A DNA stretch of 40,011 bases from positions 1-40,011 of the forward strand of contig DASPUT010000098.1 of assembly GCA_035622735.1 (NCBI GenBank). The letters run 5' to 3'. Within the stretch, counting starts at the first letter, position 1, and each line of letters begins with the position of its first letter. Made by a program: the position numbers and the translations under genes. Shown here piece by piece: positions 7,758 through 19,465 of the stretch. The notes under the pieces were generated by a model. It was not told where the DNA came from, ran no database searches, and worked only from the letters and a program-made list of their open reading frames with translations. This DNA is from Thermodesulfovibrionales bacterium. Lineage in GTDB: Bacteria; Nitrospirota; Thermodesulfovibrionia; Thermodesulfovibrionales; UBA9159.

Positions 7758-9253
7758 AGAAAAAGATATTCATAAACGCAAAATATCCCGAGGAAAAGAG
7801 AGTCGCGATCGTGGACGGAGACCTCCTCGTCGACTTCTATGTTGAAGTGGCCTCAAAAGAACATCTCAAAGGAAATATCTACAAGGGCGTCGTTACGCGG
7901 ATAGAACCGGGTCTTCAGGCGGCATTCGTGAATTTCGGGCCTAAGAAGCATGGCTTTCTCCAGATGAGGGAGATCATGCCCGAGTACCTTACTGCCGGGG
8001 GGGAGGGGAAAAGACGGAGGATACAGGATGTCCTCGTAAAGGGAAAGGAACTCATTGTGCAGGTCGAAAAGGATGAACGGGATACAAAGGGTGCGAGCCT
8101 GACCACTTACATATCCCTTCCCGGCAGGTATATCGTCATGATGCCCGGGCAGGAGCGGATAGGGATTTCGAGAAAGATCGAGGATAGAGAAGACAGAGAG
8201 CGCCTCAAGGAGGCTTTCCATTCCCTCAAACCCCCAAAGAATGCCGGTTTTATCCTGAGAACGGCGGGAAGCGACAAGACCGGTGAAGACCTCGCCAATG
8301 ACTTAAAGTACCTGACGAAACTCTGGACCAAAATACAGCATGAATCAAAGAAGGTTTCGGCACCGGCCCTCATCTATCAGGAGCATGACATCTCAGTGAG
8401 AACCGTGAGGGATTATCTCACCTCGGATGTGAACGAAGTGCTTGTCGATGACCAGGCCGCGTACAGAAATATCAAGGAATTTCTGAGAAAGACCTTGCCC
8501 TGGCGCAGGATAAACGTCCGGTATTATAAAGATGCCAAGCCCATCTTCAGCAGGCACAATCTCGAAGAGCAGATCGCGAAGATCAACGAGCGATACATCT
8601 ATCTGCCTTCGCGGGGATATCTTGTCTTCGACAGGACGGAAGCGCTTACCGCCATTGATGTGAATTCGGGACGATCCAGAAAAGAGGAGAATGTAGAAGC
8701 GACCGCGCTGAGAACGAACCTTGAGGCCGCGGACGAGATAGCGAGGCAGCTCAGACTGAGGGACATCGGGGGTCTCGTCGTGATCGATTTTATCGATATG
8801 GAATCGTCGAAAAACCGGAGAGAGGTCGAAAACGCCCTGAAGACGGCGATGGGCTCGGACAAGGCCCATACGGACATAAGCGGAATCTCGAAGTTCGGAC
8901 TCATCGAGATGACGAGAGAGAGACTGAGGACGGCCTACGCCGAATCGATACACACGAAATGTGAAAGCTGCGGGGGTACCGGTATCCTCAAGACGGAGAA
9001 GATGGTCGCCATTGCCGCGTTCAGGGAGATTCATACCCGGGTTTCACAGGGCGGCATAAGGAGTGTCACCTGCCGTCTGCCCGTCGAGAGTGCGAATTAT
9101 CTCATGAATGCAAAACGGGACGAGATCGGCATGCTCGAAAAGGATTCTCTTGTCGCCATTAATATTCTCGCAGACACCTCTGTTCTCCGTGGGCAGTTCA
9201 GCGTTGAGTCTGAAAAATCCGAAGTGGCTCCGGAGGCGCCTCCGACGGAGTAG
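7754..9253 (+). CDS. rng: Ribonuclease G (Rne/Rng family)
   Basis: Endoribonuclease of the RNase E/G family, acting on A/U-rich single-stranded sites in mRNA decay and rRNA maturation. An S1-like domain occupies about residues 35-125 (GNIYKGVVTRIEPGLQAAFVNFG). The 5' sensor and RNase H-like parts follow. The DNase I-like catalytic part holds Asp302 (AIDVNSGR) and Asp345 (VVIDFIDME), matching Asp303 and Asp346 of E. coli RNase E. The Zn-link reads CESCGGTG with Cys403 and Cys406. At 499 residues it has the length of RNase G and lacks the long disordered C-terminal scaffold of RNase E, so a degradosome built on this protein is unlikely. It overlaps the upstream small gene by four bases. Confidence 0.95.
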   Translation: MKKKIFINAKYPEEKRVAIVDGDLLVDFYVEVASKEHLKGNIYKGVVTRIEPGLQAAFVNFGPKKHGFLQMREIMPEYLTAGGEGKRRRIQDVLVKGKELIVQVEKDERDTKGASLTTYISLPGRYIVMMPGQERIGISRKIEDREDRERLKEAFHSLKPPKNAGFILRTAGSDKTGEDLANDLKYLTKLWTKIQHESKKVSAPALIYQEHDISVRTVRDYLTSDVNEVLVDDQAAYRNIKEFLRKTLPWRRINVRYYKDAKPIFSRHNLEEQIAKINERYIYLPSRGYLVFDRTEALTAIDVNSGRSRKEENVEATALRTNLEAADEIARQLRLRDIGGLVVIDFIDMESSKNRREVENALKTAMGSDKAHTDISGISKFGLIEMTRERLRTAYAESIHTKCESCGGTGILKTEKMVAIAAFREIHTRVSQGGIRSVTCRLPVESANYLMNAKRDEIGMLEKDSLVAINILADTSVLRGQFSVESEKSEVAPEAPPTE

Positions 9254-9323
9254 AAGCCCCCGAACCGATCAGGAAATTTCGTGGTCTCGCTTTCTTGTCA
9301 AGGGGTCTTGTCCGCCCAAATAC

Positions 9324-9353
9324 TTTCCCTGAGGGGTAGGGGCGTGATAGAAT
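9324..9353 (+). promoter_or_regulatory. Weak candidate promoter for the desulforedoxin-like gene
   Basis: TAGAAT (9348-9353) lies 35 bases before the ATG, with a poor TTTCCC (9324-9329) at 18-base spacing. Confidence 0.25.
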
Positions 9354-9388
9354 AGAAACAACAGAAACAGAGGCAAAGGAGGAATCAT

Positions 9389-9655
9389 ATGGCAAGAGTG
9401 GTCACCTACGAGTGCGACGAGTGCGGATGCGAGGTCGTTGTTACAGAGACGGCAGAAACCGATTTGAGCCCGCTCTATTGCTGCGGCATGGAGCTTACCG
9501 AGGTTTCGACGGAGAAGAAAGCCGCAAAACCAAAAAAGAAAACCTCCGGGAAAGCGGTCAAGAAGCCGGTGAAAAAAGCACCGAAGACCGTAGCGAAGAA
9601 GCGAGTTACAAAAAAGACGAAAACGACCGCAAAGAAGAGGGCATCAAGAAAATAG
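9389..9655 (+). CDS. Desulforedoxin-like Cys4 domain fused to a lysine-rich histone-H1-like tail
   Basis: An 88-residue protein with two unlike halves. Residues 7-37 hold YECDECG...LYCCGMEL, with Cys9, Cys12, Cys31 and Cys32. This is the CxxC...CC pattern of desulforedoxin and of the N-terminal domain of desulfoferrodoxin, where it binds one iron with four cysteines. There is an extra Cys14. From about residue 43 the protein is a Lys/Ala/Thr/Pro-rich tail with repeated KK, AKKR and KTT steps, like bacterial histone-H1-like or AlgP-type DNA-binding tails. It has a strong ribosome binding site (AAAGGAGGAATCAT before ATG). The domain could bind zinc instead of iron. I infer a nucleic-acid-associated protein with a metal or redox-sensing head. 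It follows rng by 135 bases and converges with the RibL-like gene. Confidence 0.85.
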   Translation: MARVVTYECDECGCEVVVTETAETDLSPLYCCGMELTEVSTEKKAAKPKKKTSGKAVKKPVKKAPKTVAKKRVTKKTKTTAKKRASRK

Positions 9656-15638: not shown

Positions 15639-16223
15639 ATGAAAAGAATGGGCATTCTGGTAAGCGCTTTGATTCTGCTGCTTGGGTTGTCTTTGCCTGT
15701 TCAGGCATCGCTTGTGGACATGAACGACGGAACGATCTATGACACGGCAACTCAGCTAACCTGGCTGAAGAATGCCAACTCAGCAGGGATGATGACCTGG
15801 ACCGAAGCTGTTGCATGGGCAGAGAGTCTGAATGCCGGCAGTGGGTTTGCGGGCTTAAAAGGCTGGCGGCTTCCGACGACCACTCAGCCGGACAAGACCT
15901 GTTCGGATCAAGCTACGCCCGGCGGCAGTTTCCCTCTGCAAGGGCACGGACATAATTGCACCGGCAGCGAAATGGGGTATTTGTATTATGTTTCGCTTGG
16001 CAACACGGCAGGCGGCCTTGTGGTCAAACCCGGGCCATTTACGAATATCCGGAAGAACTTCTACTGGTCGGGTACCGAGTACGCCCCAAGCACTACACAT
16101 GCGTGGAGCTTCGTTGTCCGCAATGGCTTTCAGTTCTACAACCTTAAGACCTTCAACTACTATGTGTGGCCGGTGCGACCCGGAGAAAGGGCACAACCTA
16201 ACCCTGCCCCGACTCGGCAATGA
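15639..16223 (+). CDS. Secreted DUF1566 (Lcl C-terminal-like) protein, copy 1
   Basis: A 194-residue exported protein. The N-terminal signal peptide is about 24 residues (MKRMGILVSALILLLGLSLPVQA). The mature part opens with LVDMNDGTIYDTATQLTWLKNAN and continues with TWTEAVAWAESLNAGSGFAGLKGWRLPT, the typical DUF1566 text. It ends with FYWSGTEYAP and a YYVWPVRPG closing motif. DUF1566 domains resemble the Legionella collagen-like protein C-terminus and have a C-type-lectin-like fold; their function is mostly unknown. A GHNCTGSEMGYLYYVSLGN insert with two Cys in the middle may form a disulfide. The next gene is a close tandem copy. It lacks a PEP-CTERM or sorting signal, so I infer a periplasmic or released surface protein. 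Confidence 0.88.
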   Translation: MKRMGILVSALILLLGLSLPVQASLVDMNDGTIYDTATQLTWLKNANSAGMMTWTEAVAWAESLNAGSGFAGLKGWRLPTTTQPDKTCSDQATPGGSFPLQGHGHNCTGSEMGYLYYVSLGNTAGGLVVKPGPFTNIRKNFYWSGTEYAPSTTHAWSFVVRNGFQFYNLKTFNYYVWPVRPGERAQPNPAPTRQ

Positions 16224-16279
16224 GATTCTTAAAGCGAATTCGACCATGTACTGTAGGAACACAAGAGGGAGGGAATTTA

Positions 16280-16864
16280 ATGAAAAGGATAGGCATCTTA
16301 TTGGGCGCTTCGATCTTGGTGCTTTGGTTGTCTGTGTCTATTCAAGCAACGCTTGTGGACATGAACGACGGAACGGTCTATGACACAGCCACGCAGCTAA
16401 GCTGGCTGAAGAACGCCAACTCGGGAGGGTCGCCGATGAACTGGGATCAGGCGGTTGCTTGGGCCGCAAGCCTGAATTCCGGCATTGGGTTTGCGGGCTT
16501 AAAAGGCTGGCGGCTGCCGGAGACCGCCCAACCGGACGCAACGTGTTCGTATCAAGCCGCCCCGGGCGACAGCTTTCCTCTGCAAGGGTACGGACATAAG
16601 TGCACCGGTAGCGAGATGGGGCATCTGTATTATGTTTCGCTGGGCAACACGGCGGGCGGCCTATTAACCAACAGGGGGCCTTTTGAGAATATTCAGGCAG
16701 ACGACTACTGGTCAGGCACCGCCTTCGCACCAAATACGGAAAGCGGGTGGTTTTTTTTCTTCTTCAATGGCTTACAGAACTACACGAATAAGGCCACTTG
16801 CTATTATGTTTGGGCAGTGCGTCCTGGAGCAAGAGTACAATCAAAGCCGATGCCGCCAAGGTAA
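16280..16864 (+). CDS. Secreted DUF1566 (Lcl C-terminal-like) protein, copy 2
   Basis: Paralogue of the preceding gene with the same length, 194 residues from the chosen start. The signal peptide MKRIGILLGASILVLWLSVS parallels that of copy 1. Almost all motifs are shared (DMNDGTVYDTATQLSWLKNAN, GFAGLKGWRLPE, CTGSEMGHLYYVSLGNTAGG, YYVWAVRPG). Differences gather after about residue 140, where copy 2 has DDYWSGTAFAP and a run of five Phe. I chose ATG 16280 because GAGGGAGGG precedes it and it aligns with copy 1; an in-frame start at 16220 would add 20 residues before the signal peptide. A 56-base spacer separates the copies. Recent tandem duplication is the simplest origin. Confidence 0.88.
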   Translation: MKRIGILLGASILVLWLSVSIQATLVDMNDGTVYDTATQLSWLKNANSGGSPMNWDQAVAWAASLNSGIGFAGLKGWRLPETAQPDATCSYQAAPGDSFPLQGYGHKCTGSEMGHLYYVSLGNTAGGLLTNRGPFENIQADDYWSGTAFAPNTESGWFFFFFNGLQNYTNKATCYYVWAVRPGARVQSKPMPPR

Positions 16865-17065: not shown

Positions 17066-17093
17066 TTGACAAAACGCTCATATCTGATATATT
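17066..17093 (+). promoter_or_regulatory. Strong sigma-70-like promoter of the plus-strand hexahaem cytochrome
   Basis: TTGACA (17066-17071), a 16-base spacer, and TATATT (17088-17093). Expected start of transcription is about 17100, giving a 48-base leader with ribosome binding site GAGGAGGAGATCC before ATG 17148. Confidence 0.7.
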
Positions 17094-17147
17094 AGCAATA
17101 TCAAGGGTTCACATCTTCTGTAGAAAACACCTTAGAGGAGGAGATCC

Positions 17148-17942
17148 ATGAAGAAACCTTTCTTCATATTGTTGCTGCTCGTGATCTTTGCTCCACTCGT
17201 ATTTGCCGAGGTCGGGGTGAAGAAGAAGAGGCCGTTACCTCCTGAATACGGACGGGTGATCATCAATAATTATTCACAGAAGGCCGGTATTCCGCCTGTC
17301 GCGTTCGACCACTGGCTGCATCGCGCGAAGTTTACCTGCAGACTCTGTCACGTCGACATCGGGTTCGGGATGAAGGCGGGAACAACAGAGATTAGGGAGA
17401 CCGACAACATCGCCGGCTACTATTGTGGCACGTGCCATAACGGCAGGACGACTATCAACGGCAAGAAGGTGTTTGAGGCGTGCTCCAAAACCGATGTGGG
17501 TGACAGGAGCAGATGTCTGAGATGTCATTCTCTCGGTCAGAATGTCAGGCCGGAATACGACTTTAAAATCTTTACTCAGGATCTCCCAAAAGAACGCTTC
17601 GGAAACGGGATCGATTGGGAAAAAGCTGAACATGACAAGATTATCAGCCCTATAGATTCAATGGAGGGCGTCTCGATTAAGAGGAAACCTCTCACCGCGC
17701 AGAAGGATTTTCTCGTTGTGCCGACGGTTGAGGGAATGCCTGACATCATATTCTCGCACCAGAAGCACACGGTATGGAACGGATGCGAGCTTTGCCACCC
17801 TGAAATATTCGGCAAAGTGAAACGGGGCCAAATTAAGTTCACGATGAACGATAACTTTGAGGGAAAATACTGCGGCGTCTGTCATATGACCGTTGCGTTC
17901 CCCATGATTGACTGTCAGAGATGCCATTCGAAGCCGGTGTAG
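17148..17942 (+). CDS. Hexahaem c-type cytochrome (two c7/three-haem units)
   Basis: Exported cytochrome of 264 residues with a 20-residue signal peptide ending in VFA-EVG. Six CxxCH haem sites are present: CRLCH, CGTCH, CLRCH, CELCH, CGVCH and CQRCH. They form two sets of three, each opened by a His ligand motif, FDHWLH and FSHQKH, just as in c7 or the nanowire three-haem domain. The two halves are joined by a linker containing RFGNGIDW. Such cytochromes carry electrons across the periplasm or to the outside; the partner here is unknown. A close paralogue lies convergently 0.4 kb downstream. The next gene, 24 bases on, is likely co-transcribed. A good promoter precedes the gene. Confidence 0.93.
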   Translation: MKKPFFILLLLVIFAPLVFAEVGVKKKRPLPPEYGRVIINNYSQKAGIPPVAFDHWLHRAKFTCRLCHVDIGFGMKAGTTEIRETDNIAGYYCGTCHNGRTTINGKKVFEACSKTDVGDRSRCLRCHSLGQNVRPEYDFKIFTQDLPKERFGNGIDWEKAEHDKIISPIDSMEGVSIKRKPLTAQKDFLVVPTVEGMPDIIFSHQKHTVWNGCELCHPEIFGKVKRGQIKFTMNDNFEGKYCGVCHMTVAFPMIDCQRCHSKPV

Positions 17943-17966
17943 TAATGGCGGGGTAGGAGGCACACA

Positions 17967-18296
17967 ATGGGAGAACTGAAGATCCCGCATTTTGTGCTCA
18001 TTTTGGTAGCGGTAGTATCTTCAGTGGGGCTGATGAGAGGAACGCCCACGCCTGTGAGTGTGGGCGTTGCCTTTGCTCAGGAAGCCTGGTTGCAGGAATT
18101 CAACGATATTTGTGCCAAGACGGAAGAAACGGCTATGCTCAGTTCCGACGATTTGAAGAACCTCGTCGCTCGATGCGATGCACTGAAGCCGCTCATCGAC
18201 AAGCTTCCCGAGACACAGAAAAAGGTCTATCTCAAGAGACTCCACAGTTGCAGAGACTTCTACGTCTTTGCGCTCGAATCGAAAAGCGACAAATAA
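17967..18296 (+). CDS. Small exported protein of unknown function, between the cytochromes
   Basis: A 109-residue product with a long hydrophobic N-terminus and a likely signal cleavage after VAFA-QEA (about residue 37). The mature 70 residues are helical. They carry three cysteines (DICAK, ARCDAL, HSCRD), too far apart for a haem site. An ATG with strong ribosome binding site TAGGAGG starts it 24 bases after the cytochrome stop. I do not recognise a family. The location between two hexahaem cytochromes and export to the same compartment suggest an accessory or partner protein. A role in haem delivery or as a soluble adaptor is only a guess. Confidence 0.78.
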   Translation: MGELKIPHFVLILVAVVSSVGLMRGTPTPVSVGVAFAQEAWLQEFNDICAKTEETAMLSSDDLKNLVARCDALKPLIDKLPETQKKVYLKRLHSCRDFYVFALESKSDK

Positions 18297-18317
18297 TTCC
18301 GTGCTTCGTGAAAAATA

Positions 18318-19094
18318 TCACCGTGGCGCGCCCGATGATTTCATTTTGGGATGACATCTCTTGCAATCGTCCAGAGGAAAGGCCACAAAGAGATGACAGA
18401 TACCGCAGGACTCCCCCTCGAGCATGTTGTGCATCCTCAGAGTCTCCGTCGATTTCTTCTTTATATTGAACAGGTCAGGATGACAGCTGGAACAGTCCAG
18501 CCACTGCTCGTGAGTCTTGTGAGGAAAGACCGCTGAGGAAATCCCGCTCATCTCCGACTCAAGGACGAAGGTCTTGATATGTACGATTTTCATGGCGCTG
18601 CCCGATAAGCTGGTCTTCGGTTTTATGAGTCCCTCATCCAGGGCCTTCGACCAGTCGATTCCATTTCCAAATTTGCTTCTCGGCAGTTTTGCCTCAAGTT
18701 CCTGGAGCTTTTTCCAAGGGGCATTCGAACCTTTGCCGTGGCAGCTGTCGCAATTTTTATTGGCGCCTTCCTCCGGCCCAAACGCAATCTTGCCGTTGTG
18801 ACATGCGGCACAGTATTTGCCGTTCATGTTCCCATTATTACACTGAATGGGCGTTTCATTACGCTTCATCGGAAATTCAAGCTCGTAATGACATACTTTA
18901 CATGTGTAGTTCACCCTGTGAGTCAAATGCGAAAATTCCACTGGCCGCATATTCTGTTGTCCGCCGGGTCTGGACATGAATTCAGAACCATAGTTTTCGG
19001 GCGATGGCAATGGCGGGAGCTTCAACATGCTTTGGGCAAGAGAAAGATCTGCAAGGAAAAGACAACTCAGCAGGAGAAGTATGACCACCTTCAT
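18318..19094 (-). CDS. Hexahaem c-type cytochrome, paralogue of the 17.1-kb gene
   Basis: Exported cytochrome with six CxxCH sites: CKVCH, CAACH, CDSCH, CSSCH, CGICH and CKRCH. Each triple follows a His ligand motif (FSHLTH and FPHKTH). It shares the linker text KFGNGIDW and the closing VAFPLDDCKRCHPK with the other cytochrome. I chose ATG 19094 (258 residues) because it gives a clean signal peptide, MKVVILLLLSCLFLADLSLAQ. An ATG at 19175 with a GGAG six bases upstream, or a TTG at 19238, would add an unusual N-terminus and cannot be excluded. The ending ...MKSSGAPR is short and free of anchors. It converges with the small exported gene, 21 bases away. Confidence 0.92.
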   Translation of the reverse strand: MKVVILLLLSCLFLADLSLAQSMLKLPPLPSPENYGSEFMSRPGGQQNMRPVEFSHLTHRVNYTCKVCHYELEFPMKRNETPIQCNNGNMNGKYCAACHNGKIAFGPEEGANKNCDSCHGKGSNAPWKKLQELEAKLPRSKFGNGIDWSKALDEGLIKPKTSLSGSAMKIVHIKTFVLESEMSGISSAVFPHKTHEQWLDCSSCHPDLFNIKKKSTETLRMHNMLEGESCGICHLFVAFPLDDCKRCHPKMKSSGAPR

Positions 19095-19465
19095 TGTTGT
19101 GAAACCCCTGCTAACAAATTTAATGCCCGCAGCAACGAAAAAGAGATTCCTGAAAACCCCTCTGACCGATTTCATAGCACGCTCCGCAAACCCATTCCGG
19201 GTTCTGCTACGTGAAACATACAATTCGCCAGGCAACAAGGGTTGAAGAATTTCGGAAGTGTTGCGTTACCTTATACATAGATGCCACCCGTTTTTCTTTA
19301 TTATCACACAGTGAGTTACTTGTCAAGTAAATAATCGCCAAATGGTTCAAAGGAGTCACTCGCAGACCATGAACACCTCATGACTGTGACGTATTTCCAG
19401 AAGAAATGCTGCGAGCCTGAATCCCATTCCGGACCTCCTCCACAGCGGCTTGACGGCACGTCGAA
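19095..19465 (-). other. Leader and promoter region of the minus-strand cytochrome, 371 bases
   Basis: No other gene seen. The stretch holds the promoter listed at 19298-19326 and a long candidate leader of about 200 bases to ATG 19094. The part from 19327 to 19465 has no recognised element. Confidence 0.5.
19298..19326 (-). promoter_or_regulatory. Near-consensus sigma-70 promoter of the minus-strand hexahaem cytochrome
   Basis: On the minus strand, TTGACA (complement of 19321-19326), a 17-base spacer, and TAATAA (complement of 19298-19303). The spacing is ideal. The expected start is near 19291, leaving about 200 bases before the chosen ATG or about 115 before the alternative ATG at 19175. 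Confidence 0.72.

Follow-up and report, generated by a model that had tools for sequence, protein, structure and literature searches.

Multihaem cytochromes are abundant and diverge rapidly, which makes them hard to assign by sequence (PMC12977616). Among the described systems, those closest to the locus reported here are the periplasmic dodecahaem "nanowire" cytochromes GSU1996 and GSU0592 of Geobacter sulfurreducens, which are built of trihaem domains of the c7 kind. Every domain of GSU1996 contains one His-Met haem, and Met209 is a known axial ligand (PMC10138318). A second point of reference is the hexahaem cytochrome GSU2501 of Geobacter, because the gene block downstream of it has been linked to the maturation and secretion of the OmcS nanowire (PMC12977616). 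Here, we describe a locus of two hexahaem cytochromes (CytA and CytB) and a small protein (S), found in a 40,011-nucleotide stretch of DNA of a Thermodesulfovibrionales bacterium. This whole stretch is referred to as the window.

Results

Arrangement of the Locus

CytA, S and CytB are complete open reading frames in the window. CytA, an exported-type hexahaem cytochrome of 264 residues, is encoded at positions 17148-17942 of the plus strand, and a ribosome-binding site, AGAGGAGGAG, can be read from the sequence at 17134..17143 (plus strand). The reading frame of S starts 24 nt past CytA on the same strand (17967-18296), confirming that an exported-type protein of 109 residues lies between the two cytochromes, as stated in an earlier note on this DNA. 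CytB (258 residues, also an exported-type hexahaem cytochrome) is encoded at 18318-19094 of the minus strand, convergent to S; with an alternative in-frame TTG start at 19238, the protein would be 48 residues longer. The stop codons of S and CytB are 21 nt apart (18296-18318), and a search for a terminator-like hairpin between them found none, so the convergent transcripts may overlap.

The same note had placed each cytochrome gene under a near-consensus promoter. This held for the plus strand, where a sigma-70-type promoter-like site at 17066..17093 (TTGACA-N16-TATATT, with TG before the -10), defined by its match to the consensus only, agreed at 11 of 12 positions and was the top of 48 candidates in a promoter scan of the window. 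It did not hold for the minus strand, where the site proposed for CytB (TTGACA-N17-TAATAA at 19298..19326, some 200 nt ahead of the ATG) combines a perfect -35 with a -10 that matches at only 3 of 6 positions, and is absent from the list produced by the scan. The exact pattern of this minus-strand site occurs once in the window, and an overlapping TGTGATAAT, at a spacing of 15 nt, could act as an extended -10. When the upstream regions of relatives were compared, no conservation of either promoter site was visible, and the hexamers were not visibly kept upstream of CytA. Directly upstream of CytA, there are two tandem paralogous exported proteins (15639-16223 and 16220-16864, plus strand; 194 and 214 residues) with the motif VDMNDGT.YDTATQL.WLKNANS, which we take to resemble proteins of the DUF1566 type.

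CytA and CytB Consist of Two c7-Type Trihaem Domains

Both cytochromes begin with a signal-peptide-like N terminus and contain six CxxCH motifs in two groups of three, at residues 64, 93, 123, 213, 242 and 256 of CytA and residues 65, 95, 115, 201, 230 and 244 of CytB, in agreement with the two three-haem units noted before. The TIGR04257 profile, which describes the c(7)-type trihaem "nanowire" domain and has a curated cutoff of 40 bits, matched two stretches of each protein, with scores of 95.5 bits for CytA and 106.4 bits for CytB, and CytA also matched Cytochrome_C7. The trihaem domains of CytA extend from about residue 51 to 128 and from about 194 to 261, and the linker of about 65 residues between them holds the sequence FGNGIDW (151-157). 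This sequence and the similar end of the proteins (VAFPxxDCxRCH), both of which had been pointed out as shared features, were indeed present in CytA and CytB. The best solved sequence relative of CytA was GSU1996 (3OV0), with an E value of 3.7e-26 for the single sequence and 8.6e-46 with a profile. Together with the TIGR04257 matches, this bears out the suspected kinship with the three-haem nanowire and c7 families. The predicted structure of CytA was of moderate confidence (mean pLDDT 73), and a Foldseek search with this model found a single domain of GSU1996 (1RWJ) with a TMt of 0.76, but with an E value of only 0.024.

The HxxxH-type ligand motif attributed to the cytochromes was found in neither protein; the actual motif is HxxH, at residues 55/58 and 204/207 of CytA. 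Outside of the CxxCH motifs, the conserved candidate ligands amount to two His and one Met per domain, with nothing else conserved: H55, H58 and M75 in domain 1 and H204, H207 and M233 in domain 2 (CytA numbering), which were present in 53-56 of 56 sequences. M233 of CytA aligns with Met209 of GSU1996, and Met75 of domain 1 sits at a different offset. On the basis of the conserved residues and this alignment, two bis-His haems and one His-Met haem are predicted for each domain of CytA and CytB, with less certainty for M75. In the CytB of several relatives (L032, L033, L034, L036 and others), CxxxxCH takes the place of CxxCH as the second haem motif, and so a plain count of CxxCH motifs gives five haems.

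CytA and CytB are 34% identical over 235 residues (E 2e-53), and the view that they are paralogues from one ancestor is therefore sound. However, the tree showed that the split between the A and B types is ancient and spans phyla, and an origin of this pair by local duplication was rejected.

S Is Conserved and Occurs Together with the Cytochromes

S has an N terminus of the exported type, and an alignment of 61 homologues showed that W41, C49 and R91 are invariant and C95 nearly so. The protein is predicted to form a three-helix bundle (residues 40-57, 60-78 and 82-108), for which the AlphaFold2 block means were 90-97 pLDDT from residue 41. A search of Pfam gave no match to S, the best NCBIfam score was 14.2 bits relative to a cutoff of 83, and a comparison of the predicted fold to the PDB yielded nothing significant, the best hit being a BAG domain with an E value of 0.21. 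S appears to represent a family that is without a name so far.

The presence of S was evaluated in 61 genomes of relatives using a threshold of E<1e-8. It was found that 15 of these genomes contain S, and that all 15 encode a full-length CytA and/or CytB; a lone CytB-like protein without S was present in one genome (G006). In a phylum survey of 246 Nitrospirota genomes, the cytochromes were present in 25 of the 25 S-positive genomes (Fisher 7e-29, a p value that overstates independence because of kinship). Six cytochrome-positive genomes were without S, four of them with a single weaker homologue and two of them incomplete assemblies (85% and 74%). The co-occurrence is patchy over many families, and it extends to genomes in which the genes of S and the cytochromes are unlinked (G010, G022, G051 and G060). 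The small protein is thus conserved and tracks the cytochromes, and the co-occurrence and synteny support the interpretation in the earlier note that the locus is a self-contained electron-carrier module of which S is a part.

The Convergent Form Is a Rearranged Copy of a Widespread Module

The three-gene set was found in other Nitrospirota, as had been anticipated, and also outside of the phylum, mostly in a co-directional arrangement. A contig search identified CytA homologues with 54-71% identity in Nitrospirota, Geobacterales/Desulfuromonadales, Acidobacteriota, Myxococcota and two betaproteobacterial MAGs, and cultured strains of Geomonas and Oryzomonas are among the carriers. The A-B-S module is found repeatedly, in no fewer than five bacterial phyla. 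In a count of gene order at 92 loci, a few of which are duplicated between collections, the order A>B>S was found at 35 loci, co-directional A>S>B at 19, A>S>A-like at 12, and A>B with S not detected at 7. The window type, with CytB convergent to A>S, was found at 3 of the 92 (the window, L108 and L116), and the remaining orders were few. The hit coordinates in genome G181 showed the convergent order too. An assembly artefact is an unlikely explanation of this order, because L108, L116 and the hits in G181 show it independently. Therefore, the convergent two-promoter layout, which had been regarded as a defining feature, is neither ancestral nor typical but arose by rearrangement of a co-directional operon within one clade, and the module in the window is a rearranged copy with CytB inverted. 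No other broadly conserved neighbour gene was found beside the module across the loci compared. A cluster of NtrC/response-regulator proteins was near the module in 35 loci, but it is a mixed superfamily and its position is not fixed.

The inverted CytB is common to a small set of Nitrospirota, two members of which keep only remnants of CytB. These degraded, inverted remnants lie behind S at 9258-9589 (minus strand) in L136, from "Candidatus Sulfobium" Nbg-4, and at 9179-9256 (minus strand) in L106, from DeMMO2_3, which indicates that both cytochromes are not always needed. In the trees, the CytB of the window grouped with those of L108 and L116 (support 98), and its S grouped with the S of the convergent set (support 84). 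The CytA of the window was placed with that of L107 in a quick tree (support 96), whereas a careful tree left its placement open, and an AU test did not reject a single clade of this CytA and those of the other convergent loci (p 0.289). Most simply, the lineage of the window would have undergone a single inversion of CytB, and some of its members would now be losing this gene, with CytA-S remaining as the core. In addition to the CytA, second hexahaem cytochrome and S of the window, the same genome contains, on contig C257 (L008:1134-2349, minus strand), a second CytA-S cassette that lacks CytB; its CytA is 66% and its S 49% identical to those of the window. As a separate observation, the module of L106 and L108 is beside genes resembling dnaA-dnaN-gyrB, near a likely replication origin, as judged by eye from N-terminal sequences.

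Candidate Electron Conduits

In four genomes of the same order (G010, G022, G029 and G047), doubled-CXXCH cytochromes with 14-19 haems are encoded directly upstream of A. The content of doubled-CXXCH cytochromes was weakly higher in genomes with the module (p 0.075), a correlation that was given no weight, and at most loci a conduit gene adjacent to the module was absent. Elsewhere in the genome of the window, contig C191 (L198:3435-6476, minus strand) encodes a decahaem cytochrome of the DmsE family (249.6 bits; cutoff 192.2) whose start resembles that of a lipoprotein, and behind it a GSU2204-like porin that scored 96 bits, below the curated cutoff of 350. The best PDB relative of the cytochrome was 6r2q chain A, which we take to be MtrA from an MtrCAB complex, although the text of the record names another molecule. 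The pair is a candidate outer-membrane electron conduit of an MtrA-like cytochrome and a porin. The same genome also encodes, in a row on contig C83 (L009:2201-4657, minus strand), a 312-residue multihaem protein, a cytochrome b561 and a 258-residue c7-domain lipoprotein, which possibly form a quinol-to-cytochrome module.

Discussion

We consider it probable, with some reserve, that CytA and CytB are secreted and probably periplasmic wires that, along with a dedicated partner S, relay or store electrons on the way between quinol oxidation at the inner membrane and either conduits in the outer membrane or periplasmic reductases. In this model, each cytochrome would be a short, presumably periplasmic wire built from two trihaem domains of the c7 type, and S would be a dedicated helical-bundle partner whose most likely role is to dock to CytA, whether as scaffold, adaptor or assembly factor, a contact suggested by gene linkage. 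Electrons would be exchanged with inner-membrane quinol-oxidising cytochromes on one side of the module and with multihaem conduits of the outer membrane or reductases of the periplasm on the other, as in metal-reducing bacteria, with the direction and the partners being our inference. We favour periplasmic transfer toward outer-membrane conduits, on the basis of the gene neighbours and the MtrA-like cytochrome and porin pair elsewhere in the genome, and extracellular electron transfer as the probable broader role.

The other function suggested for the locus was a partnership with Qmo, in which the cytochromes would be carriers for sulfate respiration or for a periplasmic hydrogenase or formate dehydrogenase, feeding Qmo or Dsr complexes. 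As read from translations, sat-apr-qmo-hppA genes are present in the same window, and AprA is present in all but two of the module-bearing relatives of the order. However, AprA is near-universal in the order (57 of 61 relatives) whereas the module is patchy (15 of 61), the two are not associated (Fisher p 0.25), and two of the four genomes that lack AprA carry the module. Furthermore, neither apr nor qmo was found among the conserved neighbours of the module in other genomes, and the module is present in Geomonas, Oryzomonas and Acidobacteriota. The link to Qmo and sulfate was therefore rejected on distribution, and we regard carriers of this kind as very unlikely. Dedicated donation to a periplasmic terminal reductase for nitrate, selenate or a similar acceptor, with the partner enzyme varying by lineage, would agree with locus L168, in which A-B-S is followed by multihaem cytochromes and, by eye, a molybdoprotein-like gene, and with the genes resembling a bc-type complex downstream of the module in L039/L040. 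Across the loci, the module is not accompanied by any conserved reductase gene, and this explanation seems improbable to us.

It is also conceivable, but unlikely, that the cytochromes leave the cell as surface or polymerising nanowire-like proteins, while S and neighbouring NHL/PPIase proteins would serve in their secretion or assembly. In L144 and L145, the module is directly preceded by genes for PPIase and NHL-repeat proteins, which in L145 are accompanied by 16- and 26-haem cytochromes, the genes past CytB in L151 and L156 resemble, on reading, components of type II secretion, and the block behind GSU2501 mentioned above provides a precedent. On the other hand, the NHL/PPIase genes are present in only a few loci, the sequence family of CytA and CytB is of the c7/GSU1996 kind and not that of OmcS, OmcE or OmcZ, and each domain contains a full predicted ligand set, which means that no ligand from a neighbouring subunit would be required.

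Returning to the periplasmic relay, we tentatively suggest that it could represent a widely shared and as yet unnamed envelope electron-transfer module, in which two hexahaem carriers are obligately paired with the new helical family S as a scaffold or maturation factor, and which bacteria of the metal and sulfur cycles, from at least five phyla, have passed among one another. The fixed partner and the good conservation across phyla make the module usable as a marker of one electron-transfer circuit, and S provides a handle on how such multihaem carriers are organised. The presence of the module in cultured Geomonas and Oryzomonas opens its role to a gene-deletion test.

Comparison with Known Systems

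The literature searched, mostly excluding subscription journals, contained no published account of the three-gene unit or of S. The cytochromes belong to a known domain family and have two such domains each. The three-gene unit, its distribution and the family formed by S appear to be undescribed in that literature. OmcS shares the number of six haems with CytA and CytB, and PPIase-type genes are near some relatives of the module, but the ligand set of each domain is complete in CytA and CytB, and the filament cytochromes OmcS, OmcE and OmcZ were not among the PDB sequence matches of the cytochromes at E values of 0.01-1. The UetDEG trihaem cytochromes of Tenderia and Gallionella, which have NHL, PPIase and porin partners, are similar in being c7-type secreted cytochromes near NHL/PPIase genes, a gene context that the module shares in a few loci (L144 and L145). 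UetDEG have three haems each and no S has been described for them, and the locus in the window is without NHL/PPIase neighbours.

The trihaem cytochromes c7 PpcA-E have in common with CytA and CytB the c7-type fold and, presumably, the role of a secreted, probably periplasmic carrier. In contrast, CytA and CytB have six haems and a candidate Met ligand in each domain, their similarity to PpcA is weak (E about 0.007-0.01), and the scores with the Ppc profile NF043011 (23.1 bits for CytA and 12.7 for CytB) did not reach the equivalog cutoff of 120. The greatest similarity is to GSU1996 and GSU0592, which consist of the same tandem TIGR04257/c7 trihaem domains as CytA and CytB, and the two bis-His haems and one His-Met haem in each domain of GSU1996 are as predicted for CytA and CytB. 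CytA and CytB fall outside of the dodecahaem type, which is defined by four trihaem domains and short linkers, in that CytA has two domains separated by a long, FGNGIDW-containing linker. Furthermore, the module consists of two diverged cytochromes plus S.
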